DNA of 64,000 nt from positions 42,036,001 through 42,100,000 of the forward strand of contig CM075101.1 in NCBI GenBank assembly GCA_037576195.1, written 5' to 3'. Within the stretch, counting starts at the first letter, position 1; each line of letters begins with the position of its first letter. This document shows positions 419 through 57,831 of this stretch, in pieces. Under the pieces are notes generated by a model. That model was given only the letters and a program-made list of their open reading frames with translations, searched no databases and was not told the origin of the DNA. A program made the translations under genes and the position numbers. The DNA comes from Phytoseiulus persimilis. Taxonomy: Eukaryota; Arthropoda; Arachnida; Mesostigmata; Phytoseiidae.

Positions 419-445
419 CCGTCTATTCCGTTCCGCAGGTAAGAC
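419..445 (+). other. candidate recursive (zero-length) splice site 1
   Basis: A pyrimidine-rich stretch from about 380, containing the branch-point-like TATTAACTCAC, ends TTCCGCAG at 438. It is followed at once by GTAAGAC, so acceptor and donor consensus abut at 438|439. This juxtaposition is the signature of recursive splicing in long arthropod introns. Alternatively it may be the acceptor of an exon 439-929. Confidence 0.5.
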
Positions 446-929
446 AAGCCGTGGATCTTTTCCTGGAACATTGCTCGCGAGTTCATCTCTCGCTCGTTCC
501 AGTAGGAGTCTCGCGACTTGAACACCGCATGGTACGTTGCACCAACGCGTCGGACATCGTCTCGGATGAGAAAAGTTGAGCCGCAGCTCCGAGAGAACTT
601 CGAGTCGGGCGAACCGGACGGCCGGATAGAGAGATTGGGGCTCTCGGAGGGAAAGAACCGCAAGGCTTTATTGACGCTTGCTACTCCCATTGTTGGAAGT
701 TGTTGTTGGCTGTGAGAAGGGGAGCCGGGAACACGCGCGGGGTCGATGGGAGGGAGGGAAGCGGTCGAGTACTTCATCCTAGCAAGTGATTCTATGACGA
801 CGGAGAACAAACCCTGCCCGCGCCGCTGCTGAAGCTCGTCTGCAACTGACGACGACGACACCATCGGAAAGGACTGAGGGGAGCAGAGGGAAGAGCAGCA
901 GGACGGTGACGACGACTATACCCATCATG
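439..929 (+). other. candidate alternative 5' exon ending in ATG
   Basis: The stretch is bounded by the acceptor at 438 and by a good donor, ATG|GTAAGC, at 929|930. Its last codon is an ATG in context CCCATCATGG. If spliced to the luna exon at 57832, the ATG would be in phase 0 and in frame with TILEMERYL. That would give an isoform lacking the usual first coding exon. The frame is open upstream of the ATG back to a stop at 795-797. There is no transcript evidence, and the donor could be fortuitous. Confidence 0.25.
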
Positions 930-1175
930 GTAAGCAAGCGTTCACGCAAGCTAGTCGGGCGCGCATCCGGCCGCCTAGATCCGTCACTGTCACAGGCGAT
1001 CCGTTATGTACGGTCAACGCAAAGTGCTGTTCAATTTCACAATGTTTGGACTTTTCCGTCGTTCAGCAGCTCGAACGATAAAGCCGATCGACGAGTCCTG
1101 CGTCCCGGGAAGCACCCACTCGGACGCACAAAGGGGGGAACCATCGAAGTCCGATTTCGATTCATCATGCGGTTC

Positions 1176-1180
<5 letters not shown>

Positions 1181-1212
<32 letters not shown>
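1181..1212. repeat. (AG)16 microsatellite
   Basis: Uninterrupted AG dinucleotides. They create repetitive Arg-Glu or Leu-Ser frames on the two strands, which are artefacts of the repeat. Confidence 0.98.
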
Positions 1213-1214
<2 letters not shown>

Positions 1215-4200
1215 GAACATTCCATCCGCCTTAGGGGATCGCCACTGCCGCACAGAACCGCGCCTCCGCTATCGGCTGTCTCCCCTGCCTCGGGTTGCAT
1301 GGCCTTTGCACAGCGGCGGCGGCATCGGGCGCGGCCGGTTCGCAGGCTCCTTGGACCTCTCAGGCGTCTCACGGAGACCTGCTTGTATACCGGTCTATTT
1401 TTCACATTTGTCACCAACTTTATAAGTACCCTGGAAGACGCCGGAGATTCCCGCGGGAAATTATTGACTGCGCTGAAGAAGAAACACAAGTTTACGCTTC
1501 CGGTGTTGTTATTGACTCCATCGGGTCTGCTCTTCGAGGGCACCACTGACGAGGCTAAGCTGGTACGTTTTTCCAGCCGCTGGCTCGAGTCGTTGCTTCC
1601 TCCACTCCCTCCCCGCTCTTTTCATCTCGATTTCTCTGCCTACCACGATCTGTCTTCAATGCTATAGTCCCGAATTTATAGAGCAGCAGCCCCTTCTCGT
1701 CGCATGGCGCTTGAGCCGCTCTCCGAGGGAACCGATGCATGCTTGCCGGCCGGTCGCTCGGGTGGCTGGCGATCCGCTCGTTTTTCGTTCAGAAGCCGCA
1801 TCGAGAGTGGAATCTTCGGATTTTTTTCCCCCCGTTCGGGTCGTCTACATGACGTGCCATTCCATAAATAGTCGTAAGCCGAGTGCGCGGCGTAACCGGT
1901 GACAAACATCAGAAGTCCTCCTCGCGGTGCTGTCTCCTCGTCGGTTCGCTACCAAACTAACTCGACTTCCATTCTACCCACGCCTCCCCCTTCTCCGGTT
2001 CCCGACCCTCGTCGTTCACATACGGAACAACAGCGGCAGTGGCAGTCACCCACTATATCAAGTGACTTCTAACAAGCTGTCGGCGTCACCGACTCAACTG
2101 CATTCGTCCACTCTCTCGCATCAGCATTCACTGCTTTGTCCTCTATCCACCTGTTGAAACAGTTCTTACGCTCGAGTCGGTTCTTGTTGCCGTGACGCAG
2201 CTACCAACCCTGCCGCCCCCGCATCGGATTCAACATTTCCAGCAGAGATTTTGAGCCGACTCAAGTTCGGGGGCCCCTCGGTCAGGTCCACCGGGCAGCC
2301 AGCCAGCCTCGCGGATCAAACAGGCTGCCAGGCCATCGACCTCGAACTTCCCTCCAGGAACTCTATTTGAACAGCTCTGTCAACTCGCCGGTATTGATTG
2401 ACTCGAACTCTGGCGTCGACGACCAGCAAGCCATTACGACAACTGTGAGCCACTGATCAAAACCATCGACTTTCCATGGACTCCAGGTCGCGGTATGGCG
2501 TGGATCTGGAGCACAGAACGTGTCCGGACAAGTCTGGTTCGGCTTCGGTAGTATTGTCATCGGTTGGTTGGCGCGCAGCCTGGCGCTGTGGCTCCCCGAG
2601 TGGGTTGGCAGCTAGATTGCTCGCTGTTTAGCGAGCAAGCTGGGACCGAGTCAAGTCACCAACAGCGTGCACGTGTTCGTCAGGAAACAGGACTCAGCTC
2701 CGAGTATATCCTTCACCCGGTCTATCCTCCCACCCATTTCTTGGTTGGGTGCCCGACGACCAGCGTGATATATTCGTTTGCTCCCGACTCGCGTCTATGT
2801 GAGGGACGGAGGGAGTTCGGGGATGACGGGGGCAGCTGGACGTTAGACACTCGAGCAGACGTTACGCAGCTTCAGAGCGTTTGTTTTGAACGCTGCCAAG
2901 CTTGCCGTTGAGTACCAGACCCGAAGTTTATGCGAGGCCACGTTCCGTAGCGCAGGGGAAGGAGAACGAGATCCGGGACGAGCGGAGGAAGAAGTACAAA
3001 AATTCCCTGAACGCCCTGCCAGAGATCTGGGCAGAAGGTCTGACCACGCGATCGCGCAACGATTCGCCGATTTCAAATCTCCGAACCGTTCTGAAGCCGA
3101 ACCAAAGCGCGGCCCTAACCAGGGAGGAAGAGCTCGATTGTCGGATATTCCGGGTTGTGAGTAGATCGCTGAGAACGCAGCGCGATTCGTCGGCGGGAAG
3201 CAAGCGAGGAGCGGAGTAACGAAAGAAGAAAGAAACAGTAAATAACCGTTCTCAATGAAGTCTTGGCCTCCAGATCGGTTCATGACGTTTGTAACACGCT
3301 TCTACAAACAGTAGCGCGATGATGCTCTAGTCTGGCGTGGTTTACTCTCCTCTAGAAAGCGATTGAGCCAGCGGACCGAGCGCCGACGAGGTTTATCAGG
3401 CCCAGCTCGTCTAGTTATTGTGGCTGGAAATTTACAAAAGCCCGCCCTATTTGGGCGCTGATCTGTGTTTCGCGGATACATTTTATGGCCGCGCGCCGAG
3501 GCCATAGCAGCATCGGTGAGGTGAACGGTCGACGATTCCTCGGGAGTTTTCAAGGAGCGTATTTCCAAAATGGCTGACGCAATGAATGCGGGTTTCGGCT
3601 GAGCCCGGAGCCGAGAAGTCGAATAACTCGGACGGTGCTGACGGAAGTTGGTCTCCGTGGCTCGAATCCTCAAGCCTGGTACTAGAAACTTGGTCCTGCG
3701 ATCGCGGATTTCCCGTTTTCCCGGGGTTCGTTTCAGAGCTTGCCCCGCTCCCCGGAGCATGAGGCTCTCTCTGTCTCCAGGGTTGGTTGGCCGGGTGGCG
3801 GACTAAGCCAAAGAACACACTCGAATTGTGGTGTCAGCGCCATACTCTGCCTGGAGCGAATCATTATTCCAATGCCCTCAGGCCGCTCAACATGTCTGCT
3901 CCTGTTGGCTGCGATGACCGCGTCGTGATGAGGCTTGTCCTCCTCAGGAGACGAAGAGCACGAGACAGAGGTCTGCGCACCTCCGTGGTCGCTCGATGGA
4001 ATTTTCGGGGAAGACGCACTCCCGAACAGCGAAACGGTGCGTCTCTCAGCGTCTCTCTGGGGAAGTTTCGTTTGGAGCGTTGGGCATCTTCGTTTCAGTT
4101 TCGCATCTGCGCCATGAATTCTAGTGATTCTCGGCACCCGAAACAAAGAAGGAGAGGAAGCCGAAGAAGTGCGCAGGAATTCCCTGAGTGAGCTCCGTGA

Positions 4201-4801
4201 AGGGCTTCTAGGATGAGCCAGTTTATAATTAAATGGCAGACTCGTATCTGCACCGGGTCAAGCACAGGTCTTCACCCGCGAGTCTGCCTCGGGTCACAGA
4301 GTCGTCGTCGTCTCCTTCGTTGTCGGCATTGTCGTCGCAGGAGAATCTCCTCAGGAGCACAGGGTGTAATGAGTCCTTTAATATGTCCGGCGCTCTCCAC
4401 CAGCATTCACATCCTACTCACTCAACCCAAAGTGCTCTAGAGGATGTTCGGATGCTCTGACGCCTGCCCGTTTCATACCACATTGGACGCTCTCTTCCAG
4501 CTAACAAATCGTTCGTCTTCTCTTCATGTAATGTCTCGGTCAGCCTCGACAGCGTTTCACGACGCATCATAGATCCGGATTTCAGGAACGAATTTCAGGT
4601 CCCAGTAGCGACGAACGCACGTTGGAAAGAGAGGTTGTTTCGTGGCGGTTTGATGTTTTGAGCGAAAAAGTCAAGGCCGCCTTAAATTTCGCGAAGGGCC
4701 GGCCCCACGGTCCAGTGACGTCCGGCTGGGGCTTTAATAGAGAATTGGAAAGACCAACGGAAAATGCGGCTTGTCCTGCCTCTCCTCGAGGGGGAGGAAG
4801 A

Positions 4802-4821
4802 GGGGGGGGGGGGGGGGGGGG
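4802..4821. repeat. poly-G run (20 G)
   Basis: Twenty consecutive G on the + strand, in a local G/A-rich context (GAGGGGGAGGAAGAGG before it). Confidence 0.97.
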
Positions 4822-7800
4822 TACTACCGCCTGGATCGCCTCCATCGCGGATGGTCAGATGAACCGATGGATGAAAAAGTGGACCGGAACTCAAAAAGCT
4901 GCCAAACCGCTTCCGGTCAGTAGGCCTGAAACTAAAAAGTTTCCTCCTCCCGAGCGGTGCGTAGTACACCGCTGTGTGGTCGCTCAATCGCTCGGTCCGA
5001 CGGTCGGTCACGGAATCGATCGACCCCGGCGCCAGCCAGGTAGCGATCGAGAAACGCATCCAGCGGTGCGGGCGAACCCCGAGTTCCCAGCCCCTCAGAG
5101 TAGTGGGGGGTGGGGAGGGCGAGAAATCGTAGCCGGAAAGCGAGGCGAGAAGTGGAGAGATTCGGAACACCCGAAAGCGAGCCAAGACGAGGGACATGGT
5201 CGACCATAATCACGTTCGCCACGTTTATGATCGCGCGATTGTTCGTGTCCGATAAGCAAAATACTTGTGTTTCGCATTACGCTGCTGCTGTTGCGAGGAA
5301 GGCAAGCAAAAGGAGGAGGAATGGAGCTACCGATCCCGCTAAGTGGTCGGATCGTCTTCGGGCCTTCCTCTCGCCGCTCTGGTTCTCGATAGCAATTTGC
5401 CGAAAGCTCCTTGCTTTCCGTAGTACGTCGCAGTCATCCACGAGAACACAGTTAAAGCGAGACATCGTAGGGAACATCTGGGAGCAGGCACTCCAGGGGT
5501 TTCTCTCTGAACAATGCAGCCAGACACGCAGTTCTCCCTCGTTGGCTGCTTCGTGTTGGGCTGAAGTTTGTTTTGCGAGACTCGGATTTCATTGCAGTTC
5601 ATTTTTTCGCGGCTGCGCCTCCAACGCTGCGCTTCTCTACTCCGAGTGCGTTCCTGTAGCTTGTCAAACACTCAAGGGATGCGGCGTCCCGTCCGTCCCT
5701 GGTTTCCGACCGCTTTTCCCGCTCGCTATCTTCGCAATCGCCGACGACACCTGCGAAGCATCCTGAACCGAGGCAACACTCGTTCGCGTCGCCTAGTAAC
5801 CGAGCGCGAATCGCTGATTTCCGGCTGCGCTGCTAGATTGTGCTCCAGATTCTCGGATCAGCGTCGATTCGCAGCAATCCTCATGAATCTTGCCCAACTC
5901 GGATTCCGGGCGTGTGTGGTTCCCGGAGCTCAGGACGGAGCGGCCGCTTCCTCGCAGCAAAACTCCTGATCTAAAATTTCGTCCTTTCGCGGTCAGTCTC
6001 ACAGATATCTTCGAGTGGTTAGCTGAAACATCGTGTTGGCGAACATATCGCACTCATTCGCGGTAGAACTTGTTGAGACGCTTCAGAATTGCATCGTCGG
6101 CGGAATGACGCACCAGCGATGAGGTAGATCAAGTGAGCTGGGTCAGCGCACGCGAAAAGCCGATCGCGGCAGGGGGAGTCGGGACGAGCGAGAGAGCTCA
6201 ACGACTCTGTCCATTATTATCACACGAAACATGGAGTGATGGACTGACTGGCAGACATCGAGGCGGAGCGATAGATGAATGAATTCCTGCGTCGAGTGGA
6301 GTTTCGTCGTTGTAGCCGCCACCGTTCGATGCATTTTCCTTTCTTTTGTGATCGCGTAATTATTTATGCCGACGACTCCGTGGGGACCCCGGATGGGAAC
6401 GAGATCACGAAGCGACTCATTTTTAACCCGGACCTCTCCTCCGGCCCGTGCCCTGCTCCCGCGCGCTGTCCCCTCCGAGCCCTCGTCAGTGGAAGAAGCC
6501 GCTGTGATCGAATATCTGAACCTCTTCCCGTGACTCTCTGCACACACGAGAACCAGAAGTCTGAATCATGGGTGAATTACGGGTTGAGCGCTTTACCTGC
6601 ATGATCAGCTCGGAAAGCTTCGATTCCATTCGGAACTGCTTTTTCGCTGTTGAGCAAAAGCCCTTTTCCCGTTTCGGCCCCGTCTTCGTGGTGGTACGAA
6701 TTATTGATGGGATTTCGGGAGGAATGGTCATTCACTCTCGGAGTGAACTCCGACGCATCAAAGACGCGGAACTCCTCGCCTCGCTTCTGAGAAGGTCACC
6801 GCATCATTGCAGCTTAGTGGAGTTTTTTCCTCGAACGAGCGTGAGTGTTTCTAATGCCTCCGTCTCGTCTCCTCATATTCCTGCCTCTCCTCGGTGTCCT
6901 CTCCGTCTCTTCTTGAATCCTCTGTGTCCTCCTCCCTGCTTGGAGTGACGGAGTCGGGGAGAAGGGTACTTTTCCACCCCTCCCGTTGTTCGCGTTGTCG
7001 TCATTCTACTCTCCCGTCGAAGAACGGAGAAGATGACGAATCACTCCGAGCCCGGGGCCATGCGGCGCGTGGGGAGACTTTGCACGCTTGCGAGAACTTG
7101 CGGAGAGAGAAATAGAGAAAGTGGGCTGCAGACACGGAGGACGACGTAGAGGAATCTTTTGTTTGGATTCAATTCATCTGGTCAACGAACGTTGAAATAA
7201 TCTCGGAGCTATTGTGGAACTTTCAACCGCTATCGACGAGAACAACCACAAGCTTGAGGCCTGACTCAGCCCCTTCTCCGGAACGGCATCATGTGCTGAT
7301 AACGCGGGTTCAACTGAGGATTCTCAACTGGTGTTCGACTTTTTTGCTAACACGGTCTTGGCGTCGATTCGGGAGAATCGTTTGAGTTCACCTATGGGTC
7401 CAGGGAAGGAGAAGTCTTCGGGAAAAATGAATTCTTCCCCTCCTGCTCGAGCGATAGGAGCTGCAGAGGCAGGCATGAGTCGTTTCCCCTAGGCCAAGGG
7501 CTCCGCAGCACCCCGGAAGAAAGAGTTCTCTGCCGGGCTCAGGATGAGCCTCCACTCAGCTAGTGAGCAGACCGTCCGTCCACTCATGCAGGCAGTCGGA
7601 CAGACGGGGCAGACGCGCAGCCTTTGTGCCCCGCGTTAGGGGAAGATTAATAGATTCGTTTTATTGTACAACAAATGGACCCGCCAGCATTTGAGTTCGG
7701 ACGCCAGTCGGCCGTCCAGCAACCCCATCGGGACCCTGACGGTCCGATTCACTGACTGAGTGCCCTCCTGCCTATCTGAGTACCCAGTCACACATTCTTA

Positions 7801-8088
7801 CGCATTCTTCCGCTTATTCTCCTCTCGTTCGTTTCTCCTCTCGGTGAAAACCGTGATAAAGGTGATGATTGTCCGAGGCCTGATGATGGAGATGTGATGT
7901 GAATGAACACTATGTCCTGCAGGACTTCGTCTGCGCCTGACACGTCGCTGGAAGGAATGGCCAGGAGCGAGGAGAAGGCGTCGAATTCGGCTACGCCGAT
8001 AATAATTCCTGATCTGTATTGGCCCGCTGAGTAGAGATTCAAATCGCAGAGTATTCACTTATCTCTGAGCCAGATCCGTCAATATCAA

Positions 8089-8103
8089 CCCCCCCCCCCC
8101 CCC
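8089..8103. repeat. poly-C run (15 C)
   Basis: Fifteen consecutive C on the + strand, followed by ACCCGCCTCCC. Confidence 0.97.
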
Positions 8104-11100
8104 ACCCGCCTCCCTTCCCCAGGGCGGAGGCCTTGCCCGACTGGCAGGTTGAGATCCCGATTTTGATTTGACGAACCGCTGTAGAACTGTTTCAGAAGAG
8201 AGGAGGAGTGGAGACGGGGAATCTGTTGAAGAGAAATTTCGTGGGAGGAAGGGAGAAGATATATCAGCATGAAGGCGGACGAGTTCGGAAGATATTTCGG
8301 ATTGCGATAACCTGCCGGCTGCGGGACTGGTTCTGACAGCACTTGGAAGCCTCGGGATCCGAGGGCAACGATGATTTATCTGACGACCGGGTGAGCGGAC
8401 TAGCGAGAGGTGACAGCCAGCCTCTCGGCTCATGATGAAGTCGACGGAAGCTCCCTCGAAAGTCGTTTCTCCCTCCGTTGCTTCCCTCCCCACTCACTCA
8501 AAGAAGGACAGACCGAGCCCTGACTGGCAACGTCCTGATCCGCGTGGCCGCGTACAAAGCCTTCACGCCGCTTCCCACCCCACCGAGGTCTGAGAGAGAA
8601 ATGATTTAATATTAAAATGATGCCATGCTGCGTTCATTGAAAACGCGAACTCTACTTCACGGCAGGGTTTGTGTCTAGGAACGGACCGGACGCTTTTCTT
8701 GGAGCATGCTTTCCGGGAAGCTTCGAATCTTGTTGCCTCTTTGCATACTCCGGCGCTTTTCGTGCCTTTCTCCTTTGGAGCTCGCTCGACTTGTGTGCAT
8801 TCCCCGGCCGCCAACGACTGCACGGGAACGAAAGTGCTATAATCGCTGTCAAGGAGCTCGCGTTTCCTGTTGCGGAGGAGGAGAGGTTGGAACAACCCTC
8901 GGATGAAGTCGAGCTTCCAGAGAGTTCGCATCTCGAGTATTTGCCATGCCACTCCCACGGAATCTCTTCTCGTAAAGTCGCCTGGTGGCGGCGCGGGAAA
9001 GCTGGAAGCAAATGTCGCTGTTCCGCTCGCGCCTCCGAATCGGATCTGAGGGAGCAGCTTGAGAGTCAGCGGAAAGTAGGGTCGAGAGCACAGGGATCAT
9101 CCGATTCGCTATCTCCCTGCTTCTGTATGCTCCATATTTTCCCTCTTTCTTCCCATTTCGCCTCGAATCGGATAATGAAATTCTTGAGCGGCAACAGACG
9201 AAATAGTTCCGGACAAAAGACCCGCCGCCCCGGGCACTGTGCTCTCCCCCGAAACTGTCTTCCGCGAAAGTCCAGACGTATGGTTCTCTTTATTTTCCAC
9301 CTAGCCGGTTGCTCTCCTCCTTTCCTTGAACTTACCGCTAGCTGCGCACGAGGGCGATGTAGCGACGCGAGTGTGGCACGGTTTCAACCCAACCCCGCTT
9401 TAGTGGTCTGCGACCAATCGTGTCCTGCCGGCACCAAACCGCCAAGTGAGCAAGCGATCGCTGGGCGAAGAAACAGGCGACCGGGCAGACAGGTTAGCGA
9501 TCATTCATCAATGATATTGGATTTCATCAACTCGCCAGCAATGGAGCAGAGCCTGGGGCGATCTCTTCGGGGGGAACGATGCTCAACACCTTAACTGATG
9601 TTGAAGCCGTCGCTGAGGTCCCGCCCGAGCTCTCGTCGGTGTCTTTCCCTCTGGCTCGCGAGCGTCGTCGAACTCGGCTTCGCCGCCGCAGCTGAGGAAA
9701 CCAAATCGGAGCCATCGTGACTAATCCGTGACCAACGGGGGGACTCGCGTTTTAGCGAACGACCGGACATCGCAGCGGCTCGCAAGCAGCAAGCATGGGC
9801 ACGCAGCGCCCAGAGTACCAAGTTACCGTGTTTCGACGACGGGAGCGCCGGATCGTTGAGACTTGGCTCGCGACAACAGAGCGCGTAAAACAGGAGAAGG
9901 CTGACTGACTCGCTAGCTGACAAAAAGAATCTTTAATTCGTGTCCTCCGGACTGCTCTGGGCCGTTTCCGTCCTCGGGGTTTTTTCTTCTCTTTTCCGGT
10001 CCCGCTCTCGGGGCGTACGAAACATTCAAGCGCACCTAGAAGCCGACTACAGAAGCAGCAGCTGTCATCATCGCACAAGACAAAAGATTATTTATGGAAT
10101 AGCTGGCTAGGGAACGAGCGGGAGGCAAGCGAAGGAAAGGGGGCCGAGAGGGGGGAGCCGCGATGTATCTAACGCGGCAATGCTAACTTGTGGTTTGCGA
10201 TTCATAAAGCTTTGCGGTGTTCCAATGCTGTTCCTAAAGTCGAGCGGGAGCTTTGTCAGCGTCCATTGCGGCGAGTGTCCCAGTGGCTGCAGCCCCCTCC
10301 CCTCCGCCCGCCCCTGCCTGCCCGCGAGGCTCAAAAGTTGATTTGTCAAGGTGCCACGGCGAAACCATGCAGCTGTACGCTAACCAAGTCGGCGGCTAAG
10401 ACGAGGCCCGGACATCTCTCAACTCGAGCTTCTCCAACAAGTTCTTTCTTGTTAGGCTTTTGTTTTGTCCGCACTCGTTCATCACACAGTTGTTGCACTG
10501 AGCCCCTGTCCTCGTGGTCCTCCGCTCAGCGTCAGGACGAATCCTCAGAGGGTCCTGCCAGGGTTTCCCGAGAAGAACGCACTAAATGGCTCCGCCGAAC
10601 CAAGAAGAGCGATGATCCAATATTACAGAGAACTCTATCCTATCGGTTGATAACAACAACAACTCGAGCTTCCCAGACGATACTTGGTAGTTATTCCGTA
10701 CTTTTCCGCCAAATCCACCTGGCCCTCGTGAACTGGGTTTGCATTCGAGCAATCGAGATGCGCTTTGACCCCGTAACCTGCGGGTCCGTGCAATCGATGC
10801 CCGTCTCGGTGGTGTTCGCGACAGCGTCGGCGGAAATCGAGCGTATGAACGACTTGTTCATAAGCGTGGAAAAATACTCTTCTTCCTCTCGGAGGGAGGG
10901 AGGCAGAGCGGCTCCAATAACATCGAGAGAAGAAACGGTGCGGCGGCCACGTCAATGACGGAACTGTCATCTGATCCGAATATCGGAGCCAACACAGGCT
11001 GCAAACGCTTTCAAACTCCTCGCTGGGAAGAAAAGAACAAGATAGAAGGAGCGACCAACTCACGGATGGGCGCCGCCGCTGCCGACTCTTGTTCTTCTTG

Positions 11101-11741
11101 GCCCAACAACTCTGCAGCCGGAGCATCTGATTCTTATTTCACTCGGACGTGCTCTCTTTTCTCACACTTACAATTTCCTCTAACGGAGCGAAAATAAAAG
11201 AGGAAGGCGCGTCTCTGCGTGGTGCGCGGCCCCTTCTTAACTTAACCTTATTAGAGTCCATTGAGAACGGCGAGCTCCGTCCGTCCGTCCGCCGTCTCTT
11301 CCTTCATCGTATTTTGACTCACTCTCGTTTTCGCTCGAGTACACCGAGTTTGTCTTTCAACCGGGCCGGCGAGAGACCGACGACGAGCGGTGGGACGGAC
11401 CCTCTCTGTCGGCTGGTCGTTCCGAACGGCTGTATAACAACTGTCTTGCTTACTCAATATCGCCCGTACGATGAGTCTTCATGCCTGGCTTTCATCACTC
11501 ATGGACGTGGCGCACCCTGTGACAATACGAGTGAACCGTATCCCGGAGAAGCAGCGAGAGCCGGAGAGAAACAAAGAGAGAACGACCAGCAAACGCCTGA
11601 GCGACGGCCAACTGCTGACATTTATATTTCCTCCTATGAAAGAGTTCTCAGAAGTGATGACCCAAGTGAGCAGCGGATTTGTTTTGGCCAGAGACGGGGG
11701 TGCCCAGCAGCGGAAAGCCTAGCGCCCCGAGGGAGCGAAGC

Positions 11742-11762
11742 GGGGGGGGGGGGGGGGGGGGG
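11742..11762. repeat. poly-G run (21 G)
   Basis: Twenty-one consecutive G, the longest mononucleotide run in the window. Confidence 0.97.
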
Positions 11763-14254
11763 CGGTGACGTTTTCCGGTTTTCCGACGGGCTAGTTTGTG
11801 CGTTGGCCTCGCTGACCCGACCAATGCTCATCGTAACGGGCGCACATGTTTCCTTGACGTCGCTGCCGTCGCGACCGTTGTTGATGCGAACGATGTTGTC
11901 GTTGTTGCAACGAGCGGCCGTTTGATAGCTGCAGACGCCTAGCCGACCGCCTGACGCCAACTTAACGACTCGATAGCGCAACCGAGGCCAATACGGAGTC
12001 AGCCTCCATAATTCTTCTAGATGGTTGTCGTCGTCGTCGCCGCCCGAGAACGAAGTAGTTAAGAGTCAGCAAGCCTAGTTCACTTCCTTCCCAGATATGA
12101 GTTTCGCGGAGGAGACGCCGAAATCCGAGAGGCGCCACCGAGGGCCGATACTCGAGTCAAGAGACTCCCTTAATCGAATCACCAGTCACATAGGTGCGGT
12201 CGGTGTTCGCCCCCACCCCCTGAAGCAGCGGCAAATGTCATGGCCTCAACTCCGACCTCATTTGTGAGAGTCGCTGCGGGCACGGCCAGGCTAAACGGAA
12301 CGAATCGAAGAAGCGTGGGCAATGGGAGGGGGTTCCACTGGCAGTCGACCCTATAGTTCGGGGCTGTAACATTTATATGTCTGTCGTAATTTCCATATGA
12401 CCAGTCAGTCATATATGTTCCATAATGGTCCAAGCCTTTTGGGACAGCGAGAGCAGAGTGAGTGAGCAAAGACGAACGCATAAATTATGCAACCCAGCCA
12501 GGCATTGTGATTTGATCGGGTGTAGGAAGGGACGAGCAAACGAACGAACGACAAATCTGATTGTGTTCTGCTTTTATGACCAGCTTGACATTGAGACGAC
12601 GCCCCCGGCGGGCGCCAACGGACGTTTGTTTTGTCTCGCTGAGCATCCATGTACAAGCAAGATATTCCTGTTCGGTGTTGCAGAGCGAGCGCAGCGGGTC
12701 CAGACCGCGCGACGTTTGTGACGTCCGGTGTCTGGTTTTCTCTGTCCGCCGGTCTGGGGGGAGTCGCTCAGGTTTCTGTCGTCTATTTCGGTCAGCTGGT
12801 TCCCGGCTTCCGGGGAAACTTGTCGGTCAGCTGTGCGACCGATGGTCGTTCAGGCAAGAACGGAGCCAACCGAGTAGGGAGGCACGCAGCACGCCGGAGC
12901 ATGTTTCTGCCGACTGATCGACTTCAGCTTAGGCAAATTGCAAGCGCTCTATCTTCATTGATGGCTCATTCCTCCATTTCGTTGTATATTGGCTTAGTGT
13001 GGTGCTGGTGGCGCGGTGCCACATACAAGATTAAGCCTACGACCGACGTCCAAACCTTCCTCCCCCTCCTCCGGCTACACTGCCTACCACTTGGTTCGGA
13101 TCCCTTGATTTGATTCCTCCCGTGAAGCAGAATCCCCCTATGGGCGGCAGACTCCTATCTCTTTCTCTCTCACTCTCTACAGCCTTCTTCTCCATTTCTT
13201 CCCATCCGTACCGCGAATACATACCACAGACATACGACAAGTAGTCAGACATGAATACATACATATCCCTCATCCGGGCTCTGATCAGCGGAGTTGATCT
13301 TGGTCTTAGTAGTTTCCTTCTTTTCTCCAATATAGACAAAGGGTTCGTCCTTTCTGCTCTCTTCTTGTGTTCATTCCTCCGCTCCATCCTTATTTCTGCT
13401 GTTCTCAATACATCCAGCCGCAAATACCCCGCTGAGGAGGGAAATTCCACCATATTGCTTCGATCGCAGTCCGGGGCCCGGAAGAGACCTCATCGACGAC
13501 GGTCTAATTACAGCCAGGCAGCAAGAGCGGCGATCCCGTGAATCCTGTACGGTATCTGTCTTGTTGCAGGACTTTGTCATGAGAAGCGCCGTCCGAACAT
13601 TCAGGATTCGGAGCGGCCGTCCTGGGAAAATCAGCGCGAAAGCACCGTTGTCGATTGCCCGTGTGACGCAGCGCGATGGAATGAAATTTTAACCAGACGG
13701 GAACTACGGCGAGTGAGGCGCTCTGTCGTCGGACTCGAGATGATTTTTTTCCCGTGTCTGCGTCTCTCCGAGTTCACCTGTTCATAATTGTAATCCCGAT
13801 CCCTCGCCCACTGCAAACCTAAGAAATGGGATTCCCAAAGAGCCCGAATAATACGCTCGAGGAAGCACACACCGCATGAAGTGTTGAGTGGTGGTCACAC
13901 CGATATTTGCATGTCTCAGATGTGCTTCCGCCTAGTGACCACCGGAATAGCATCAATTGATTCGCGGAGTCTCTGTGGGCTCGGCGTGACGAGGCTCGAT
14001 CCTTCGAGTTCTCCTGATTGCCGAGTTCCTTCGCCCGAAGTTCCGGACGAAAACTGATACCGAGTCGGAGCTCGAACTCCGGCCATTCTCGCTCCCCATC
14101 ATCGAGACTCATTCGGTTCGAGCTCGATGCACTTGTACGGGATCTCGGCAACGTACTTTTCCGTGATGGCTTCGGCAATATCGGACTGTGGTACTTTGAA
14201 TAATAGAGCCAACGAGCGAATCAATGGCGGCATCGATCAGATCGGTTTGCGAAC

Positions 14255-14291
14255 TGCAACAGCAGCAGCAACAACAACAACGACAACAAGA
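14255..14291. repeat. imperfect CAG/CAA trinucleotide repeat
   Basis: Mixed CAG and CAA units (CTGCAACAGCAGCAGCAAC...). The repeat would encode a poly-Gln run in one + frame. No splice sites or surrounding domain support translation. Confidence 0.9.
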
Positions 14292-43223: not shown

Positions 43224-43249
43224 AGTATCTTCTCTATTTCCAGGTAAGA
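43224..43249 (+). other. candidate recursive splice site 3
   Basis: TATCTTCTCTATTTCCAG is followed directly by GTAAGAG at 43243|43244. It lies 17,633 bases after site 2 and 14,588 bases before the luna exon at 57832. Confidence 0.55.
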
Positions 43250-46200: not shown

Positions 46201-49200
46201 AACTCATTCGAACGTGTTCGACAGCCTCATGATAACGCGAATACGCGTTATCAGCACGTGTGAGATAACATGACTGTCGACGCCATCTTCACCACAACCG
46301 ACACGATAACCACGGCGAACACCAGCAGTAACGATGATGATAACTGATAAAATTATTCTTCTCATGTCATGTTGCTGCGTGTGGTTCCGCACAAACCGCC
46401 ATTAGCGAGCGAGCTCAACGGGTGACTTCGGTAGTGGGGAGCTTTTGGCGGCTTTGCCGAACGCAACGAGAACGACGAACTCGGCCGCGGCTATAACGAG
46501 GACGATGAGTACGACGACTCATTGTGATGGAGCTTTCGGCAGAAACATCGAAAGTAGAGATGGCGGCTGAGACCGACGTCCGACAAAAGAAGATCCTAAT
46601 ACAATTTGGACACGTGACCCGGGTGAAGCTGAGGGAATCGAGATTTGAATGCTCCTCTGAAAATCGCGGGTTCGTGGCGAAAGATGACGATGCTGCTGAT
46701 GATGATGGAGAAATGATGGATGACTCTCTGAAGAACAGTTAGCGACGCGAGGGCTTTGGACAGCTCGCTCACTGAGTCGCTTGCCCGAATCCCCGGCTGT
46801 GGCGACTGCTCACCGCGAGTGGAAATAAAGCTCCGTTTCACATTTCGTCGTTCGCACACCCTCAGGACGGCTGTGGACCTTTCAAACTCAAGTTTCGAGA
46901 ATGTTGGCTCCTGCCTCTCGGTCTTTGTGCGAGAGCGGTCCGTTGAATCCCGGCTTTCCCTTTTCTTAGAGTATTGGATGAGTGCACCGCGACTGGGCAG
47001 AAGAGTGACTGGGTTCTTGAATGAGCGACATCGTTCTCATTGAGGAGGGGCGCATTGTTCACTGCTGGACGGAACACAAATCTCATTATGAGCTCTCCTA
47101 TCGGGCGCCCGCCGGCCCCGTCCAGCGGCCACACTTAATTATGCCTCTACTACAAACCCAACTCGGAATTCGGGTGAAACTCGTACGATGAAGTGCAGCG
47201 ATATTTACTTCAAATCACTTTTGGTCGAGTCCGATTCGGTCAATGCTTGCGATCAGAGGAGGAAGGGTATGCTGACCACCTGCAGTCCGAGTGGTGATCG
47301 AAGGAAAGGCAACAGTGGCAAGCAAACTTCGCTGCTCTCATCCCTCTCCGTCGTCGTCGTCATCGTTTACGAGGGGCTCGTCGTCGGCCAAGTCGTCTCC
47401 ACGTCCCTAATATCCAAACGTCAGATAACGTCGGATAATTAGGAGGCCATCGGATGCGACGGCTGCTGCCTGAGCAGACTATAAACTTAATGCGGAGACG
47501 ATCCTAAGGCGCCAACGCGGCGGAGACGGGCTCGGGGCGAGACCTCGCGGAGACAACTATCCATTAAAGCAGATGGGAGCAGATAGAGGCGATATGGCCC
47601 CTGCAACGAGGACGGAGCCCAGTCGGAAAGCCGTTTCGTTGCTGTTTCTGTCGTTGCGACCACACTTGGACTAAGTTCCACATCTCAGAGGACAAAACCC
47701 ACTAGTCGGCATGAGGCGCGACCATGGTGTTTTTTTTTTCAACCGGAGCGCACAGTTGACGGTCGCGGTGCGGATGGATCGCCATCATCTGTGCGGTACG
47801 TGCACGACTCGCTCGCGAAACCGGTTCGTATTTCGTCTGCCGGATGCCTCCTCGGAAATGTTGAAGGGACCGCGCCACAATCTTCTTTCGTCGAGGCTGA
47901 TGAGCGCGGATGAGATACGCTGAGAACAGCTGGCTGGAACCCGGTCAACACAGGACCGTATCGGCACTTTCGACCCACCGAAGATGTCCGTACCTTCCTT
48001 TTAGTCCTCTCCCCTCCCCCGTAGTGCTGTCTCCTTCCCTCGATAACGGACACAAGGACATTCCGGCAACGGCTCTCATTCATTAACGATTCCGGCTCCT
48101 TCTCGACTCTCTGATCTGACGCGGAACGACCAGACCGGCGCAGCTCGATATCATCCTGGCGGGCATCCGAGTCGACGACTTTCTGACGCGGACCGCCGTC
48201 GCCACGCTCGAGCTCCGAGCGAAGCTGATCTCGTAGAGATAATCACCCGTCGGGGAAGCGCGGATGGAGCCTATCTATGAGGATAATCTTCGTTCTCTCC
48301 TTCATTCAGCTCATGGGTCGGCCCGCCGGAGACACTCCAGAGCTTCCGCTCCTTCTTGTAGAACTTCCTCGCATCTGGGCAGCGGTTGATTCAGCGGAGA
48401 GGTGGGTGACGGGAGAATGGTGCGGATTACGCATGGAGCTCGAGTGAATTTCCCTCTCCATTAAAACATCCTCCATCCATGAGGAACAATGAGCTCAGAT
48501 TCACTGTACCGGGGAGGCGGAGTCAAACCCAGTAGTGGACTTTAACTTTCGTTCAGGACGCTCCGAAACACGCTCCGCCGGAACCGGGTCGGACTCGAGA
48601 AGACAAAACATCCCTCCCTTTCCCGCGTTGCCGTAGAATGAAGTAATCGCGACTTTGAGAGGATCTGGAGTGCACGCGTCGGTGCGGTGGGCGCAAGTTT
48701 CTTGTTCGTTCGACTCTCGTTTGCGACGGTGCGCATGGTGCTTGCCACTTATTCGCTCACACCCCGAGTCTGCTCGGAGACCAACTGACTGTCTGTCTGT
48801 CCGAGGGAAGGATGGGAAGAAAGGAGAACGCTAAGCGGAGAAACAGAAGCATCCTGACACTCACAAGATTAGGAATTCGGCTTCTCCTCCACGCCGTTCC
48901 TCTTGCTCTCATTTCTTGGGCGACGGCAGCCTCCCCGCCGGCTTCAGGGTTCGCTGGCTGGCGCATTGGCTCGTTGGCCGATTCGGTTGGCTAGATGGCA
49001 AGTACGGCGATCCTCTAGAGATCGGTTAGAATGGCTCTGAGGTAGATTTTCCTCCTCTCGGATCTCCTCGGCCGGACTACGGGAACTGCGTTCGGAACAG
49101 ACAAATAAACAAACCAACCTCTTCGCCTCGGCGGAGAACCAACGTCCGGCGACGGTCGAACCCATTCGCGCCTACTCGGAACGAGGGTGTTACGCTCACG

Positions 49201-52200
49201 ACGCATCGATGAGCGATATCTTTCCGAATTTCGCGACCCGGAGAGTCGTTGAGGCTCGTTTCGCGGCGTCAGTCAGAGCGGCGCGGGCTAATCAATCGTT
49301 AAACGAGTTCCTGGTTTTCCTTCGGCTGTTGGCGAGTCGACATCCGACCGGAAATAACCTGCTCGTGGTTAGCGTCAAATATTTGCGTGGCAAGCTTCGG
49401 TTTTGTTGATTGCCCTCTGCGGCGACGCACTCGCCGTTGCCGGCGAAGGTGTCCTCCTTTCGTTTGTGGAGTCGTGACTGTGGCCGACAACGTACTCAGA
49501 AAGCAATATGGCCCAAGCGGTCAGCGACTCACTATTACAAAGTTCGAGCCGCGGCTAGTCGGCGGGAAATGATCCTGTCGACTTCATAGGCCGCCACTCG
49601 TTCTCCGGATTTCGACGAGATGGGAGGCAGCAAAGAGGAGAAACGGGAGCAGCTCGACGGTTCCGGCGACGACCGCCCGCTGACAGGGCTTCGCTTTTTC
49701 AGGCTCAAACTTTGAGAGATGGAATCATCTTTTTCGATAGATTCCCGGCCCGAAAAATGAAACTTTGCCGCTCAGGGAGAGCGTGGAAAGCTCTCTGGCT
49801 ACATTGTGCTCCGAGCTTGTCTCGGCGAACCGGGCTCCCTGGATTCCGGAACTCCCCCACGGTTGAGATTCCGCCATGGGTCAGCGGCCAGATACCCATA
49901 CATGATGACTCCTGATGAGCGAGGAGCTCCCTGTGCCGCCACGTCGAATTTCGCGCGTGCCATGAAGTCTCCGTCCATGCAACTGTATCCAATCGGCTGT
50001 GGTGAGCGGAGGAGATTTCCATCATGCAGACAAATGGTGTAACCATTGTGGACTTGTGGTACCGGACGGATACCGGCCGGCGTAATGACGGGTTTGACCA
50101 GCTCTGACGGCGGGATGAGGAGGAATATGGGGGCGGGGGAGGTGAGAGATGGGGGAACACCCTTGGCGTGAGAATGCTCTCCAAGATAGATGATTGAATC
50201 CAGAGAGTGCACCTTTCCGGCTGCAGTTCGCCGCCGTCATAGAGGGCTATGAGTGAAACCTTATCTCCCCCCTATGCTGGGTCGAGGCCAGGCGGGCAGA
50301 GCGCGGCCGTGCGGCCTGGGTGGAGTAGTTTGTCTGTTCGAAGAAGAGTGGAGCGGTGCTTGCGTTCCGAGCGACGGAGCAGCCAACAGCGAGCAAAACG
50401 AAGGGCTTTATATGTCTGCTGAATTATTATGGAGCTACGTGCCTCCAGAATATGCCCTAGGACCCGTCATAAAACTCGAGGTCGGTCGTCGTCGCCGCCG
50501 GCGGCTCAGCTGGAGGCTTCGAATGTCGTCGTCGTCGACGACCACGCCTAACGGCGATAAAGTGTCTGTGACACCCAGTTGCGTCGTGAGATCTCTGCAG
50601 GACGACAACGAGTCAAACCATTGGCTTGTAATGGAAAATGGAAAACGCCATAATGGACCAGCCAGACGATCCCGCGAGAGCAGCAATCCAGACCGTCGGC
50701 CAAGCAGCCAGCCGGCGAGCCGCCCGCCCGACCGACCGGATGGCCGACTTGCAGGCCACCTGCCTCACGGAATCGTTAACCGTCGGCAGGCCTCGCAATC
50801 ATCAATCATCATTACGAATCTATCTCAGGACCACTTTCGTCTACAAGACATTGCTTAGCTCGATTCTGCCTAGAAGGCCACTTCAACGCTCCGATGGATC
50901 CCGTCTGTGATCGCGATGATACCGGTCATGATGATCGCAGTGATGAAGACAACGAAGCAGACCGAAAAGAAGCGATTCAACATCGCAATCCTCCCTGAAA
51001 GACGTCATCCCCAACTCCCTCTTCGCTCTCAATGCTCGCTTTGCAATGGGGAAACTCTCGAGAAGATGAGTTGGGAAAAAAAAAGAGGCGAGATCATGAT
51101 CATCGGAACTCTCCGAAATCCTTGCATTCCCAAACCCGTCCATTCTTGCGAACGCGCTGAGGGAACTCAAGGCCATCCGGTAATGAAATCTGCGGATGTG
51201 TACAATCAGCTGTCAAAACAAACAGGTTACATTCGACTCGATGGTAAGGCCAAACTGTCGGGGTTCTACTCGCGGCGTGGGAAGCTCGATGCAAGGGGCG
51301 CTTTTCGGGCAGGAAAAAACGGTTCTCCAACAGAAAACCGTTAGCGATGAAGGCAGCCGAAAGGAGGAGGGAGAAGCACAGCAGACCTTATCTGTAATGC
51401 GTTCGCTGGCTCCCGTATAGGAACGTAGCGAGAGCCGAACACAGCACGGCCACACAGCTTGGCGGAACCCTGTGAGAATAGCGGCAGTTTCTCGTAATGA
51501 ACAAAGATAAAAGGCCAATATCAAAACTATTTTTTCCGTTCCGGTTTAAATTATTTCCTCTCCGCGCTCACTGATTGTGCGCGGAGGCTCGACGAATCGT
51601 CTCGTTCCGACTCGATGCTCCTCTATGGAAATACCTCGAAATCCGACTGATGCATGACAACTTAGACACCTAGGAGTTCCGACGCTGCCGGAAGTTTCCG
51701 AGAATATCCGCAAGGCGGCTTATCTCCACCAAGGGACAGACTTGGAGTCGCTCCATTTGTGCATTACTGATAGAAATGAGCTTATATTTGGGAATTCCCG
51801 TTCGTTGTTTACTGTTTTGCATTCTACCCTCGGGAGGAATTCATGGGCAGGAGGACTAAGTCATGAATTGAGAAAAGATGTGAGTGGCAACGACACGGGG
51901 AGGGTAGCGAACACAAGGAAAACGTGAGGCGAAGGGAAGTAGCACGCGGAGCGGCAAGCATTTCGCGCGCGGGAAAAACCTCCGCCGAGGAGAAACGAAA
52001 GATGGTTCCAGAGGGAGAACAGGAGATGGACTTAGCAATGTTCTACGCTGTCTACGCCTCTAAATTGGATTTAACTCCGTTGGATCTCGTTTTTTTCTCT
52101 CAGTTCGCTTTGTTCGTTCCCCCATTCCCTCTCGTCGATTCGATCTTCCGTCGCCTGTCTCGCGTCGGGACCGGGCTTCCAACTACGCTTCCCTTTGCTC

Positions 52201-55200
52201 GTCGCGAGCGGTAGACTCCTGGGAATCTCACAGTGATCCAGCCGGAACGTTGATCTCCATCTGACAATAAAGGCCGCACGTGCTGAGTCCACTCAGCAGA
52301 GTACATCACCGTACATCCATTGTGCCGCCTCGAGAACAAACGAAGGAGCAACAGATATGGTTCAGCCCTTCCTCGAGATCTTCCTTCCAAGAAATCCGTC
52401 GAGCTCAGCCACAGTCCATAGTTGTCGCTCCTCGTTTTTCCCGGCCGCTCGCTCTTCTACCCGAGGGGCGATCCGATCTGTGCCGAGTTGGTTAGAGCGC
52501 AGCACAAGCTCTCGAGGGCCGTCTGTCCCAACAATTGTCCAACGAACCGACCGCGCGCCATCAGTTCCGCTCGCGTTCCCGCAATTCGTTCTCTTCGCCG
52601 TTCACCGGCCCGTTGCGCGTATTGTGAACAGCAATGCTCCCACTCGCCGTGTTCCCATAAAGCGTTACGGGGTGATTCGGTTACCTTTCCGACGGCACCC
52701 TTTGTCCTCTTCTGAGCCCTTTCGATACTCTTTTCGCGAATTGCGTTACAGCCTGCAACGCGGGCCGCCGTCCTGTCTGCTCGCTTCCTTCTGTTCCTGG
52801 CGGCTCTCCTGTCTGCAAGACCCCCCTGAAAGGCTGGCAAGGTGCAAACTGAGGGGGGCACTGTCCTGCGGGCGGCGATCCCGGGGCTTTGTGTGGCGGT
52901 CTGCTCTATCGAAGCCGGTCGGCACGAAGTCGGCTGATACGGAGATCGCATTTGATGCAAACGAAGCTGATTCCCCATCGGACTACCCGCAAAGAGTTCG
53001 GAGCTGGAACTTCCCCGGACGCGAGCTCGATCATCGGTCGGTGGCACCGACAACGACAGATTCGACCCGCGCCGCGATGGGCGCAGCAGCGAACAAGGCT
53101 TCCGAAGGCCGGATCTCTTCAAAACGCCTCGCGCCGAGCTCACCCGACTCCAGAACACGAGACTATTGTAGAGATCATTGCCGTTGCCCGCGTTCGCGAG
53201 CGTTGGTAACGGCAGCAGCAATAACGGTGCCCGAATCCCGAACCTGCTCACGTTCCTAGAGCTATTTCCGTTCCCTCGACGTCCTTAGGCGCAGGAATGC
53301 AAAGGTGCTGCACAGGATGAACAGGAGAAGGAAATAAACCGGGGGCGAGCGCAGTGGCTCTGGGCCCTCCCAACGCAGTGTCACCGCGGCCGGTTATATT
53401 TAGTGCCATGCTGCCAACGATCTCCGGCGTGGAAGTTGCGCACAGGAACGACCCACCAACAGACCGAGTATCGGAAAACTAAGCAGACGATTCGCTTGCC
53501 AAGCCAGCAAATCTCGAAAGTTCGCTGTGCCGCAGCGCCCTTCCCCGAGGAGTGGACGGTGCCAATTTGCGTAACTCGGCATCTGCGGTGGGTGGCGGGA
53601 TCTTCGAGTGCCGACTCGCTGCCTCGGAGCGCTTGCGGGAATTCACGCGGCGGCGGAGGAAGACCACGCGGGGGAGGAAGACGGGGAACCAACGTGGGTC
53701 GGCCAGTGTTCTGTATGAGATGGGCTTCTCTGCTGGTCTCGACTCGGGGACCACCATGCAACTGCGGCGGCAGACGGCTTGCCATCCTGTCGCCATGAAT
53801 TCGCTACGAAGCTTTCTATAAACAAGCCTGGCTGGTTTACAACCTGCCGCGGGCCTGGGAGATCCTAGGATGAATATTTTACTCCCGTTCACAGGAGAGC
53901 AAATTGATTCTTCCTTTTTCGCTGTCTCCTGCATCCCATGCGTACACTTCTGTTCTCTTCGAAGCTTTCGCGAACTCTTGGAGATTCGGGACGAGAAGGC
54001 CAGCGTATCGGAGATAGTATCCTCAACTGGCCGATGTGCGCCAGTACCTCGCAGTCGTTCCGAAGAGTTCCTCTCCGAAGAAGTTTCCGCTAAGCCGCTT
54101 CGTGAGGCTCACGCGTCGAATGCTGTGGAAACGCAACAAACGATCCGTCCGACCTCGTGAGATGAATGCAGATCAACGCACTCCGGTCAGGAGTCACTTC
54201 GAGGATCTTCTGCTCGAGAACTCCACCCTTGAAGCAATCGATCTCGAAAGTTTACGCGGCAAGCGAACTGGTCTCGTCAAGATAAGTTTTGATGTGGCTT
54301 CAAGACGAGCGGGAGCGAGGGAGATAACTCAGTCGGCTATTCGAGAGACGATCAGACCGATCGGGTGCAAGGAGATAGGAATTCTCCAAAAACTTCACCA
54401 TTAGCCCTCTGCAGAGACCGCGGCCACCAACGATTAGCAAGCTACGTCTGGAACTGCCCCAACGTATCCGGAAGAGCTGTCCATGATCGTGTCGACCATG
54501 AGTGTACTCTGTGGTGGAGTTGATGCATCGAGATAGCGAAGCCATGAACTGGGCGAAAATGCGGACGGCCCGCGGATGCCGACTTTCTTGGGAACATCGC
54601 AGCCTCATCAGTACTTCTGAGCTGTGGATCGAAACATGCCCCCCTCCCCCGTTCAGGCTCCAATCCGAGCCATGGGCTCGGATGCAATGTCCGATCCCGG
54701 CGCTGATGCGCACGTGATCGCGTGCAGCGCCTCACCAGAACCGGAGCACCCTGCTTGTACGCCTTTGTCGACTCTCGGACGTTCCCGACCTAATTCCGAT
54801 TAGGTTTTCCTCCCTGCGTCTGCGAGCCCACGACTCCGGAGGCGCTCGACAATGTTCACCCAGAAGCTCCGGGGGAGCCGACCTCGGGGTTGAGTTCGGC
54901 GACAGCATTCGTGTTGCAACGGTGGACGAACGGTATCTGCAGCTGCTGCTGCCCGCCGTGTTATCTTGTCAGCTTTTTCCCCATAAGTTGAAATTGCTGT
55001 TGTTTTTGTGGCCCAAGTTAGAAGCTGTTCCGGGGTCTTATCAGTTGTTGGGTCTGCTTGGCGAGATATCGCGGGCCATTGAGCACCATTATCAATAGTA
55101 GGTAGCCGGCTGGCCGGCGCGGCGTGCGCGTTTGTTGCCGTTACTCTGTCAGCCACCCGCCGCTCCCCGACTCGTATGCCCCGCCGACCAGCCCGCGTGA

Positions 55201-57831
55201 AGCTTGTTCGTTTGTTTTCAAGCCAGCCAGACAGCCATCCTGTCCGGCATGTCGTGAACCGTGAACTCATCCTCACTATATCACCATTGATATTTTGACA
55301 GGGTCTGTTCAGGGCCCTTATCTCGGAGTGTCTCACCTCACTCGACCCCTCGCACCCCCACCTCCCCGCCATTGGCGCCATATTCCTCGCCCTGAATGAT
55401 GTGAACCCATTTCTCCACCGCTCTCAACTATTCCTTCAGGAGGGAGCAGTTTCCGAGCCTTCGTATTTGTTCCGTTTCCCAGGGATTATTTCCTTGCCCC
55501 CGTCGGACGAACGCGATGCTTTTCCGACAACCTTCCGGACGTCTCCAGCGCATGCGTCTGCTCGATGTCAATCTCTTGCTCCCTCGAGAGACAGAGGTGA
55601 ACAACTGACAACACAGCTAACAAGAGCGACAGATCGAGAAAGCTAGGCGAATCACCTGAATCACCATCAATCACCGGGAGAAACTAAATTTCCGGCACAA
55701 ACTTTCCCAGTCTGTTGAATAATAGAAAGGGCTTCGAGACGAGTTCGGCCCTGCTGCTGCCGCAGCCGTCTCCGCGCTGCTGAGGCTACTTCTCAGGCGC
55801 CCCGGCCTTTCCAGCAAACAGCAAGCTATCCCGGAGGGTTCCTGAGTGCTAAGTTGACCAACTGAGGTCGCGGGAAGCCTACCAAGTTGGCAAGACCGCA
55901 ACAGTCCCGTAATCAGTGTTTATAACGTCATAAACAGGCGATCGTCGAGCTGGTGACGCAGGATGGTCCCGATCAAGTGACTCAGCTGTTCCGCAGCGAA
56001 AAAGAAGGGACGACGAGTGGAGGATGGGGCAGGAAGCGCCGAGGGTCGCCATGAGTGTGAGCGAAGTCGGGGGACGGCTGAGTAGCGAATCCCGGAGAGG
56101 AGTCGAACAACATCCACCCAGCCATCGGGCGCCCAGTCCGTTGGTTTGTCAACCGGTACGAGTCATCGAGCGTATCTCTATCGACAGAGACGCTGAAATT
56201 CGAACGGTGCTCGCTCGCCTGCTGGATCTACTTCTCTTTTTTGGGTCTGAGCTATTTATGATTCTCGTAAACGAGGATAAAGAGGATACAATAACACTCC
56301 TCAGGAGACGACACTCCTTTACCTCTGCCGGATGTCCTGTCAGCTAGCTTTTCCGTGGATCTAGGGAAAAGATCTCTCACCCCCGAATTCCGCTCTCCGA
56401 GACGACCTCGTTGAAGTTTTGCGCTCCCCGATTATCGTTCGAGCCTCAGGACCCTCCTCCAACGGTTCCATGAGGAAATCGTGTCTAATCGACTCCCGAG
56501 CCCCGATCGGCGTCGAGATTCGCTTGGTCTTCGATCGGCCGATCTCATGCCGTTCCCGATGCCTTGTTTCCGAATATTCCCCCGCTGTCTCTGACGCGGG
56601 CAGGACGACAATGGAAATAGAATGGAATCGAGAAGCATATCCCGTGGCGATCCCCCCGCACCGCGTCTGGGAGAACTCACATTCGATTAGAGTCCGGAGC
56701 GGCACAACCAGACGGAGAACGGATATTATAGAGTTCGAATTCGAATCGAGTGACAGCCATGCTCGCGATCGCGAAGACCCCGGTCCTTCGTTCCCATCCG
56801 CCACCGACTTGCTCGCCCGCCTGTTTGCCTGCAGCTCACTCCGTGGCATATGCAAACGGGAGAAGCAAGAGCGCGATTGCGAGCAGCCGCTGATGGCCAT
56901 ATGATCGCTTTTTTAGTTACTGTTGTTGAAATATTTCACAAACACTGGCCCCGCTCGCGGGTGCTGCCGCTTCTCGATTTCGCAGACTCAGAGTCATCCG
57001 AAGACACACTCTATACAGATCCTGCGACGATAGATCGCAGCGATGGCGCGAATCCCCGCTTCCTAATGGGCCGTTTGGTGCGCGGATTTGCAAATGTGAG
57101 AGTTTTGCATTGGAATAACCGCCATCCTCGGCAGACGACTGTGGCTTGATGACGATTGCTAAGTTTCTGCTGTCCATCCTCCGAGGTTCGCGGGTTCTGC
57201 CTTCGAACCGCTTCGTGACTCCCGAAAAAATCGTTTCTTCCATAGTTATTGAGCGTTATTGTGGTCTTTATTCCCCGAATATATTCCACAATCCACTGCG
57301 GATGAAAATTTTGTGGGCCATTAAAGAAGTGGTCGAGTATAAAAACCAGCGCTCCTTGAAGACCTAAAGCAGGGAAACTGTCACTGAATGGGAGTGCAAG
57401 AGGAGGTGCATCAAGAGGCGGGTTCAGGTGGCACTGAGCCAGGAGCGGAACCCACAATACCTAAAAGTTGGGCCACCGGGATAGCCATAGGTCTTGCTCG
57501 GTGACGCGTACCACCTGTTCGCTAATTCTGGCAGTCGATTCGAAGTTATCTCCTTTGAGAGAGACTTTTCGGAACCACGAATGCTTCCGTCATCCCTCTG
57601 CTGGCCGGCGAGCTATCTCGGCCGCCGTCGTTGCAAAAGCGAACGACGGACGATCGAGTGGGGAGCTTCTCCAATTGAAAGAGCTGCTTGTCCTTTGCTC
57701 TCCGAAAGGGAGTAAAAAGCGAGCCTTCTGGGTCTCGAGATATGTTCTTTCTCCTATCAATACTAATCTATTCGTTTCTTCTCTCGGAACGCTCTCTCAC
57801 TCATCTATATCTTTCTGTTTTTTTTTTGCAG
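43250..57831 (+). other. presumed luna intron segment 3, ending at the exon acceptor
   Basis: About 14.6 kb ending at the strong acceptor TTTCTG-T(10)-GCAG (57811-57831). No exon is supported. The longest frames (52357-53259 + and 52457-53251 -) overlap almost completely on opposite strands, which argues against both. It contains one acceptor-like site with an unusually long pyrimidine tract (44919|44920) and an inverted repeat at 46230-46253. Confidence 0.5.
46230..46253. repeat. inverted repeat, 10-bp arms with 4-base loop
   Basis: TGATAACGCG, loop AATA, then CGCGTTATCA. The arms are perfect. There is no T-run after it and no gene context to suggest a terminator or known RNA. Confidence 0.9.

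Follow-up and report, generated by a model that had tools for sequence, protein, structure and literature searches.

The window, a stretch of 64,000 nucleotides of the Phytoseiulus persimilis genome (C1:42036001-42100000; genome of 181 Mb in 127 contigs), was scanned together with its surroundings, 150 kb on the upstream side and 50 kb on the downstream side. The final third of luna's (KLF6/7) first coding intron lies in it, followed by two exons; the first coding exon was found by tblastn 107 kb upstream of the window, on the + strand and in matching phase. In the following, plain positions are those of the window, negative positions are window-relative and lie upstream of it, and a slash marks a splice junction.

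C1:41928997-41929098, + strand: luna/KLF6-7 exon 1 (tblastn, best E 3.6e-15)
1..57831, + strand: final 57.8 kb of luna's first coding intron
57802..57831, + strand: final 3' splice site of the intron, T-rich tract and GCAG/
57832..58407, + strand: luna/KLF6-7 exon 2, through zinc finger 1, donor AG/GTGGGT
60332..60510, + strand: luna/KLF6-7 exon 3, zinc fingers 2-3, end ...HNKRHQP stop

Judged by its N-terminal exon and its zinc fingers, the host gene is KLF6/7 (luna). Over 41 amino acids, of which the last 7 lie past the exon end, exon 1 is 63% identical to a KLF7 query (E 1.7e-14), 54% to a KLF6 query (E 1.3e-11) and 68% to a composite KLF query (E 3.6e-15), all three being typed N-terminal sequences. 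The protein encoded by exon 1 ends in ...EETWQQ, and the exon boundary CAACAG/GTCAGT is in phase 0 as required by exon 2, the start of which matches the KLF6/7 sequence TCLELERYL. The zinc fingers match a KLF query with 89% identity (36 aa) and 95% identity (62 aa, exon 3), this query having been partly written from the window itself; with Pfam zf-C2H2, finger 1 gave a match only below the cut-off. Exon 2 (57832-58407) is open in three successive frames, the first ending in a stop, the second in ...DPSG and a stop, and the third containing zinc finger 1. The frame changes may be due to indels in the assembly, to short introns that escaped notice or to a genuine frameshift.

Because exon 1 lies 107 kb upstream of the window, the first coding intron measures 164,733 bases and not 57 kb. 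The very long luna intron of the preliminary description of this DNA is thus real, and longer than the window had revealed, with both flanking exons on the same strand and in the same phase. Long poly-G and poly-C tracts occur inside it at 4775-4819, 8089-8137, 11718-11762 and 39264-39305.

All AGGT sequences in the intron were scored as a 3' splice site fused to a 5' splice site, using generic splice matrices rather than ones trained on the Phytoseiulus persimilis genome. The coding strand yielded nine strong candidate ratchet points, the opposite strand not one (score at least 16).

C1:41941833 (-94167), + strand: candidate ratchet point 1 of 9, score at least 16
C1:41961901 (-74099), + strand: candidate ratchet point 2 of 9, score at least 16
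C1:41981499 (-54501), + strand: candidate ratchet point 3 of 9, score at least 16
C1:41993102 (-42898), + strand: candidate ratchet point 4 of 9, score at least 16
C1:42013376 (-22624), + strand: candidate ratchet point 5 of 9, score at least 16
C1:42026601 (-9399), + strand: candidate ratchet point 6 of 9, score at least 16
415..443, junction 438/439 (C1:42036438), + strand: candidate ratchet point 7 of 9, tract and CAG/GTAAG, score 16.4 (acceptor 8.5, donor 7.9)
25587..25615, junction 25610/25611 (C1:42061610), + strand: candidate ratchet point 8 of 9, tract and CAG/GTGAGT, score 19.1
43220..43248, junction 43243/43244 (C1:42079243), + strand: candidate ratchet point 9 of 9, tract and CAG/GTAAG, score 18.6

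In each of the nine, a strong 3' splice site (acceptor scores 8.5-13.8) is fused at AG/GT to a strong 5' splice site, with combined scores of 16.4-20.7, and together they are the top nine among the 650 AGGT of the intron (309 on the + strand, 341 on the - strand). The cut-off of 16 was chosen after the score list had been seen, the lowest of the nine scoring 16.4 and the next best site 15.0; at a cut-off of at least 14 there are 10 sites on the + strand versus 2 on the - strand, where the best scores 14.4. In the roughly 99 kb of flanking sequence outside the intron no site reached 16 (best 14.3). The site scoring 15.0, CCAG/GTGCGT at -81894 (C1:41954106) on the + strand, may be a weak further ratchet point.

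The three sites within the window had been proposed earlier as serial recursive splice sites, and the description of them holds to the base: CAG ends at 438, 25610 and 43243 and is followed by GTAAG, GTGAG and GTAAG, the tract contains 12-13 pyrimidines in 16 positions at each, and the intervals given as about 25, 18 and 15 kb measure 25,172, 17,633 and 14,588 bases. The minus-strand match near 34451, said to be without a tract, indeed has an acceptor score of 1.5 compared with 8.5-13.8 for the coding-strand sites. If the sites served recursive splicing in series, more of them would be expected on the same strand in the remaining intron. Six further sites scoring at least 16 were found there, and none on the opposite strand of the whole intron, which supports the serial reading; lying outside the sequence behind the preliminary description, these six are independent of its choice of sites.

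The juxtaposition of the two signals, and not either signal by itself, distinguishes the strands. Strong acceptors (score at least 8) number 131 on the + strand and 143 on the - strand, and GTRAG donors 250 and 232, so that there is little strand bias in either. GTRAG follows a strong acceptor in 9 of 131 cases on the + strand versus 0 of 143 on the - strand (Fisher 0.001), and the two pentamers met most often behind strong + acceptors are GTAAG and GTGAG. The nine sites divide the intron into ten segments of 12.7, 20.1, 19.6, 11.6, 20.3, 13.2, 9.8, 25.2, 17.6 and 14.6 kb, which are more even than random placement would give (CV 0.28, P ~1.5e-4). A YTNAY-like branch motif is present within 70 nt upstream in seven of the nine (a raw count without control), with none in the last 70 nt at -22624 and 43243; for the site at 438, possible branch sites are TTAAC at -29 and CTCAC at -25 relative to that site. 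The sites are not copies of a repeat family, since their flanks of 300 nt on either side show no match to each other.

Nine evenly spaced double splice signals suggest that the intron is removed in ten bites and not in one. Once Pol II has passed a site, its polypyrimidine tract and CAG would act as the 3' splice site for the donor of exon 1. Joining of exon 1 to the site would regenerate a donor, consisting of exon 1 and the GTRAG of the site, which would then be spliced to the next site downstream. Up to ten such steps, each taking out about 10-25 kb, would remove the intron, the last of them ending at the exon that begins at 57832, and the mature mRNA would keep no trace of the ratchet points. 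On the strength of the sequence we consider it very probable that the 165 kb first coding intron of luna is spliced recursively, in up to ten steps, with the nine sites as its ratchet points. The sequence evidence for the series is very strong, and from it we infer that the ordinary spliceosome uses the nine sites one after another, in 5'-to-3' order.

A variant of the same mechanism would place each site at the 5' end of an RS-exon of the Ubx microexon type, acceptor and donor being fused there and a further donor following after 35-250 nt; this is compatible with recursive splicing, and some mRNAs would then keep a small exon. Ratchet points of the fly are thought to be recognised via cryptic RS-exons, according to PMC8605326, and donor-like sites were found 35-93 nt downstream at four of our sites: a possible RS-exon donor ACG/GTGAGA 35 nt after 25610 (score 8.1), and others 93 nt after 438 (score 8.0), 58 nt after -94167 (score 6.0) and 47 nt after -9399 (score 5.5). 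At three other sites they lie 132-254 nt downstream. However, the downstream donors are not enriched overall in comparison to 5,000 random places in the intron (mean 4.7 versus 3.9, P 0.17), and at two of the nine sites, -42898 and 43243, the 300 nt downstream contain no donor with a score above 5. We regard RS-exons at these sites as less likely than not; the sites may be zero-length, as the preliminary description had it, or may pass through a cryptic exon.

Far less probable is that another transcription unit, a nested gene or a separate non-coding RNA, occupies part of the interval and that some of the sites are its ordinary splice sites. An intron of 165 kb may well contain enhancers, alternative luna promoters or lncRNAs. 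However, in the intron part of the window (1-57,800) no Pfam match at 1e-3 was obtained with the 110 longest open stretches, among 189 that reach 100 aa, and nothing in the window reached the Rfam gathering score, so that a nested gene found no support there. Ordinary exons seldom begin with GTRAG, and GTRAG as the exon start in nine of nine sites would be odd.

Whether such a series could arise by chance depends on what is counted. There are four CAGGTRAG in the window, at 436, 25608 and 43241 on the + strand and at 34451 on the - strand, which is unremarkable: 100 shuffles gave a mean of 2.84 and at least four in 31 of them. An expectation of about two per 64 kb had been stated before; the chance level of the bare octamer is thereby confirmed, the shuffle mean being somewhat higher. 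Because of this, the earlier argument rests on the pyrimidine tracts. In the whole intron, a tract with at least 12 of 16 pyrimidines precedes CAGGTRAG in 9 of 10 cases on the + strand and in 0 of 3 on the - strand. Markov sequence yielded a mean of 0.14 sites scoring at least 16 for order 3 (300 runs) and 0.15 for order 5 (60 runs), with a maximum of 2 in both. With the tract scored, the Poisson probability is ~2e-5 for the three sites in the 57.8 kb of intron in the window, 7e-10 for the six upstream sites alone and 5e-14 for all nine, values that are indicative because the threshold was picked after seeing the list. That long introns simply hold CAGGTRAG octamers, from which a reader selects those with a tract, would agree with the ordinary count of the bare octamer in the window, but it is hardly credible, and was rejected, once the tract and the whole intron are scored, with nine sites observed against 0.14 expected, none on the other strand and an even spacing of the nine.

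Genome-wide, Y6NCAGGTAAG is not commoner than its backward-read control (118 versus 139), whereas Y6NCAGGTGAG is (278 versus 147). Neighbouring Y6NCAGGTRAG sites 3-40 kb apart lie on the same strand in 22 cases and on opposite strands in 5 (P 7.6e-4), in comparison to 47 and 48 at 80-400 kb, which at face value pointed to recursive splicing throughout the genome. This test used 284 sites of the 396 matches (118 + 278), setting aside 18 GTAAG matches, 5 GTAAG repeat matches, an 11-member array on C3, GTGAG matches on C2-C4 with A or G in front of CAG and 8 matches on small contigs. A control with a broken acceptor, based on 54 of its 56 matches, gave 0:1, and one with a purine tract (47 matches) showed by eye no pair at 3-40 kb beyond one tandem repeat. 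The acceptor-only control Y6NCAGGAAAG was one-sided too, with 8:0 in the first 100 of 212 matches and 4:0 after removal of 5 repeat matches, and close pairs on C1 were near random (14 seen, 10.4 expected). Because of these two results the same-strand clustering is suggestive only and is not proof that recursive splicing is general in this genome.

Pattern searches also gave other same-strand series. One of them, singled out as the best-looking one, lies on the - strand at C2:17909096, 17936022 and 17954829, with scores of 18.1, 22.1 and 22.0 and distances of 19 and 27 kb; the next best site within C2:17908001-17958000 scores 13.0. This region is a candidate for a second recursive intron. At C2:17914995-17916962 there is an open stretch of 634 codons with 15-residue repeats (ITPPELETNGQIGLG-like), in which other frames are open too. 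By eye and without control, same-strand series of ratchet-like motifs were also seen at C1:36.73-36.85 Mb (-), C1:25.29-25.33 Mb (-), C3:27.65-27.67 Mb (-) and C4:17.16-17.18 Mb (+); from each of these, a homeodomain match on the same strand lies 68-161 kb further downstream. On the - strand of C3, CCTTTCTCAGGTGAG occurs eleven times at intervals of mostly about 5 kb, apparently as a tandem array (C3:24774180-24841611), and C2H2 zinc-finger matches are densely packed at C3:21186479-21206551, in open frames that are very long and reach 4504 aa.

The luna intron of flies is the closest known counterpart of the series described here. According to Duff et al. 2015 as cited in PMC8758631, five ratchet points lie in an intron of the fly gene that measures 108 kb and is removed in six steps, and RT-PCR of Luna is mentioned in the legend of S3 Fig of PMC6110457. 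Compared on this basis, the two have in common an orthologous gene by domain content, a very long intron and several same-strand AG/GT ratchet points; they differ in number and length, with five in 108 kb in the fly and nine in 165 kb here irrespective of intron position, and in that use of the sites is reported for the fly and inferred for Phytoseiulus persimilis. More broadly, the Drosophila ratchet points of Ubx, kuz, osp and Ten-m, as presented in PMC6110457 and PMC8605326, share with our sites the motif (Y)nNCAG/GTRAGT and their location in long introns of developmental genes. PMC6110457 gives ratchet points in most fly introns above 40 kb, with segments of typically 9-15 kb compared with roughly 10-25 kb in Phytoseiulus luna, and seven high-confidence sites as the highest number for one fly intron compared with nine candidates here. 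Unlike in these Drosophila accounts, donors of downstream RS-exons are not clearly enriched in the mite intron.

The preliminary description had added that such sites would extend stepwise intron removal to this lineage. The candidate series is present; the novelty is smaller than supposed because ratchet point enrichment has already been computed for mosquito, bee, beetle and sea urchin in PMC2773006 (Shepard et al. 2009). For introns above 50 kb, that paper states an enrichment over the complement of 21.7-fold in the fly, 8.2 in sea urchin, 8.0 in beetle and 4.0 in bee, no ratchet point on the complement in mosquito, and 1.5-fold or less in vertebrates. The type of test, intron strand against complement, and its outcome are the same as ours and place the signature beyond fruit flies; the scoring and the species are different, and bulk densities are given there, whereas here the sites of a single gene are mapped as a series. 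Thus the 5.5 ratchet points per 100 kb of the single luna intron are not directly comparable with the 0.5-2.2 per 100 kb stated for invertebrates. Among titles and abstract openings of the literature on recursive splicing (mite, chelicerate, luna, KLF6), a luna-intron case outside flies was not found. As to the distance from flies, two pieces of ribosomal protein L3 from this genome matched vertebrate and fly chains about equally well, the fly chains ranking 23rd and 24th with one of them, behind many from vertebrates, so that a close relative of flies is unlikely.

In conclusion, the nine-site luna series is a new case of a known phenomenon, and an unusually long one. It provides nine candidate ratchet points that are mapped and testable and apparently lie outside flies. 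Its special interest comes from the gene, whose fly orthologue is recursively spliced too. We put forward, leaning slightly towards doubt, that stepwise removal of the first coding luna intron is ancient, going back to the common ancestor with flies and kept as the intron grew, up to ten steps in the mite. A comparison of luna between fly and mite would tell whether recursive splicing is tied to a gene and intron in the long term or arises anew with intron growth. Ten steps, if true, are more than is reported for any single fly intron in the papers cited here, and with nine candidate sites exceeding the fly maximum of seven high-confidence sites given in PMC6110457, the intron would therefore test how many consecutive steps are tolerated.
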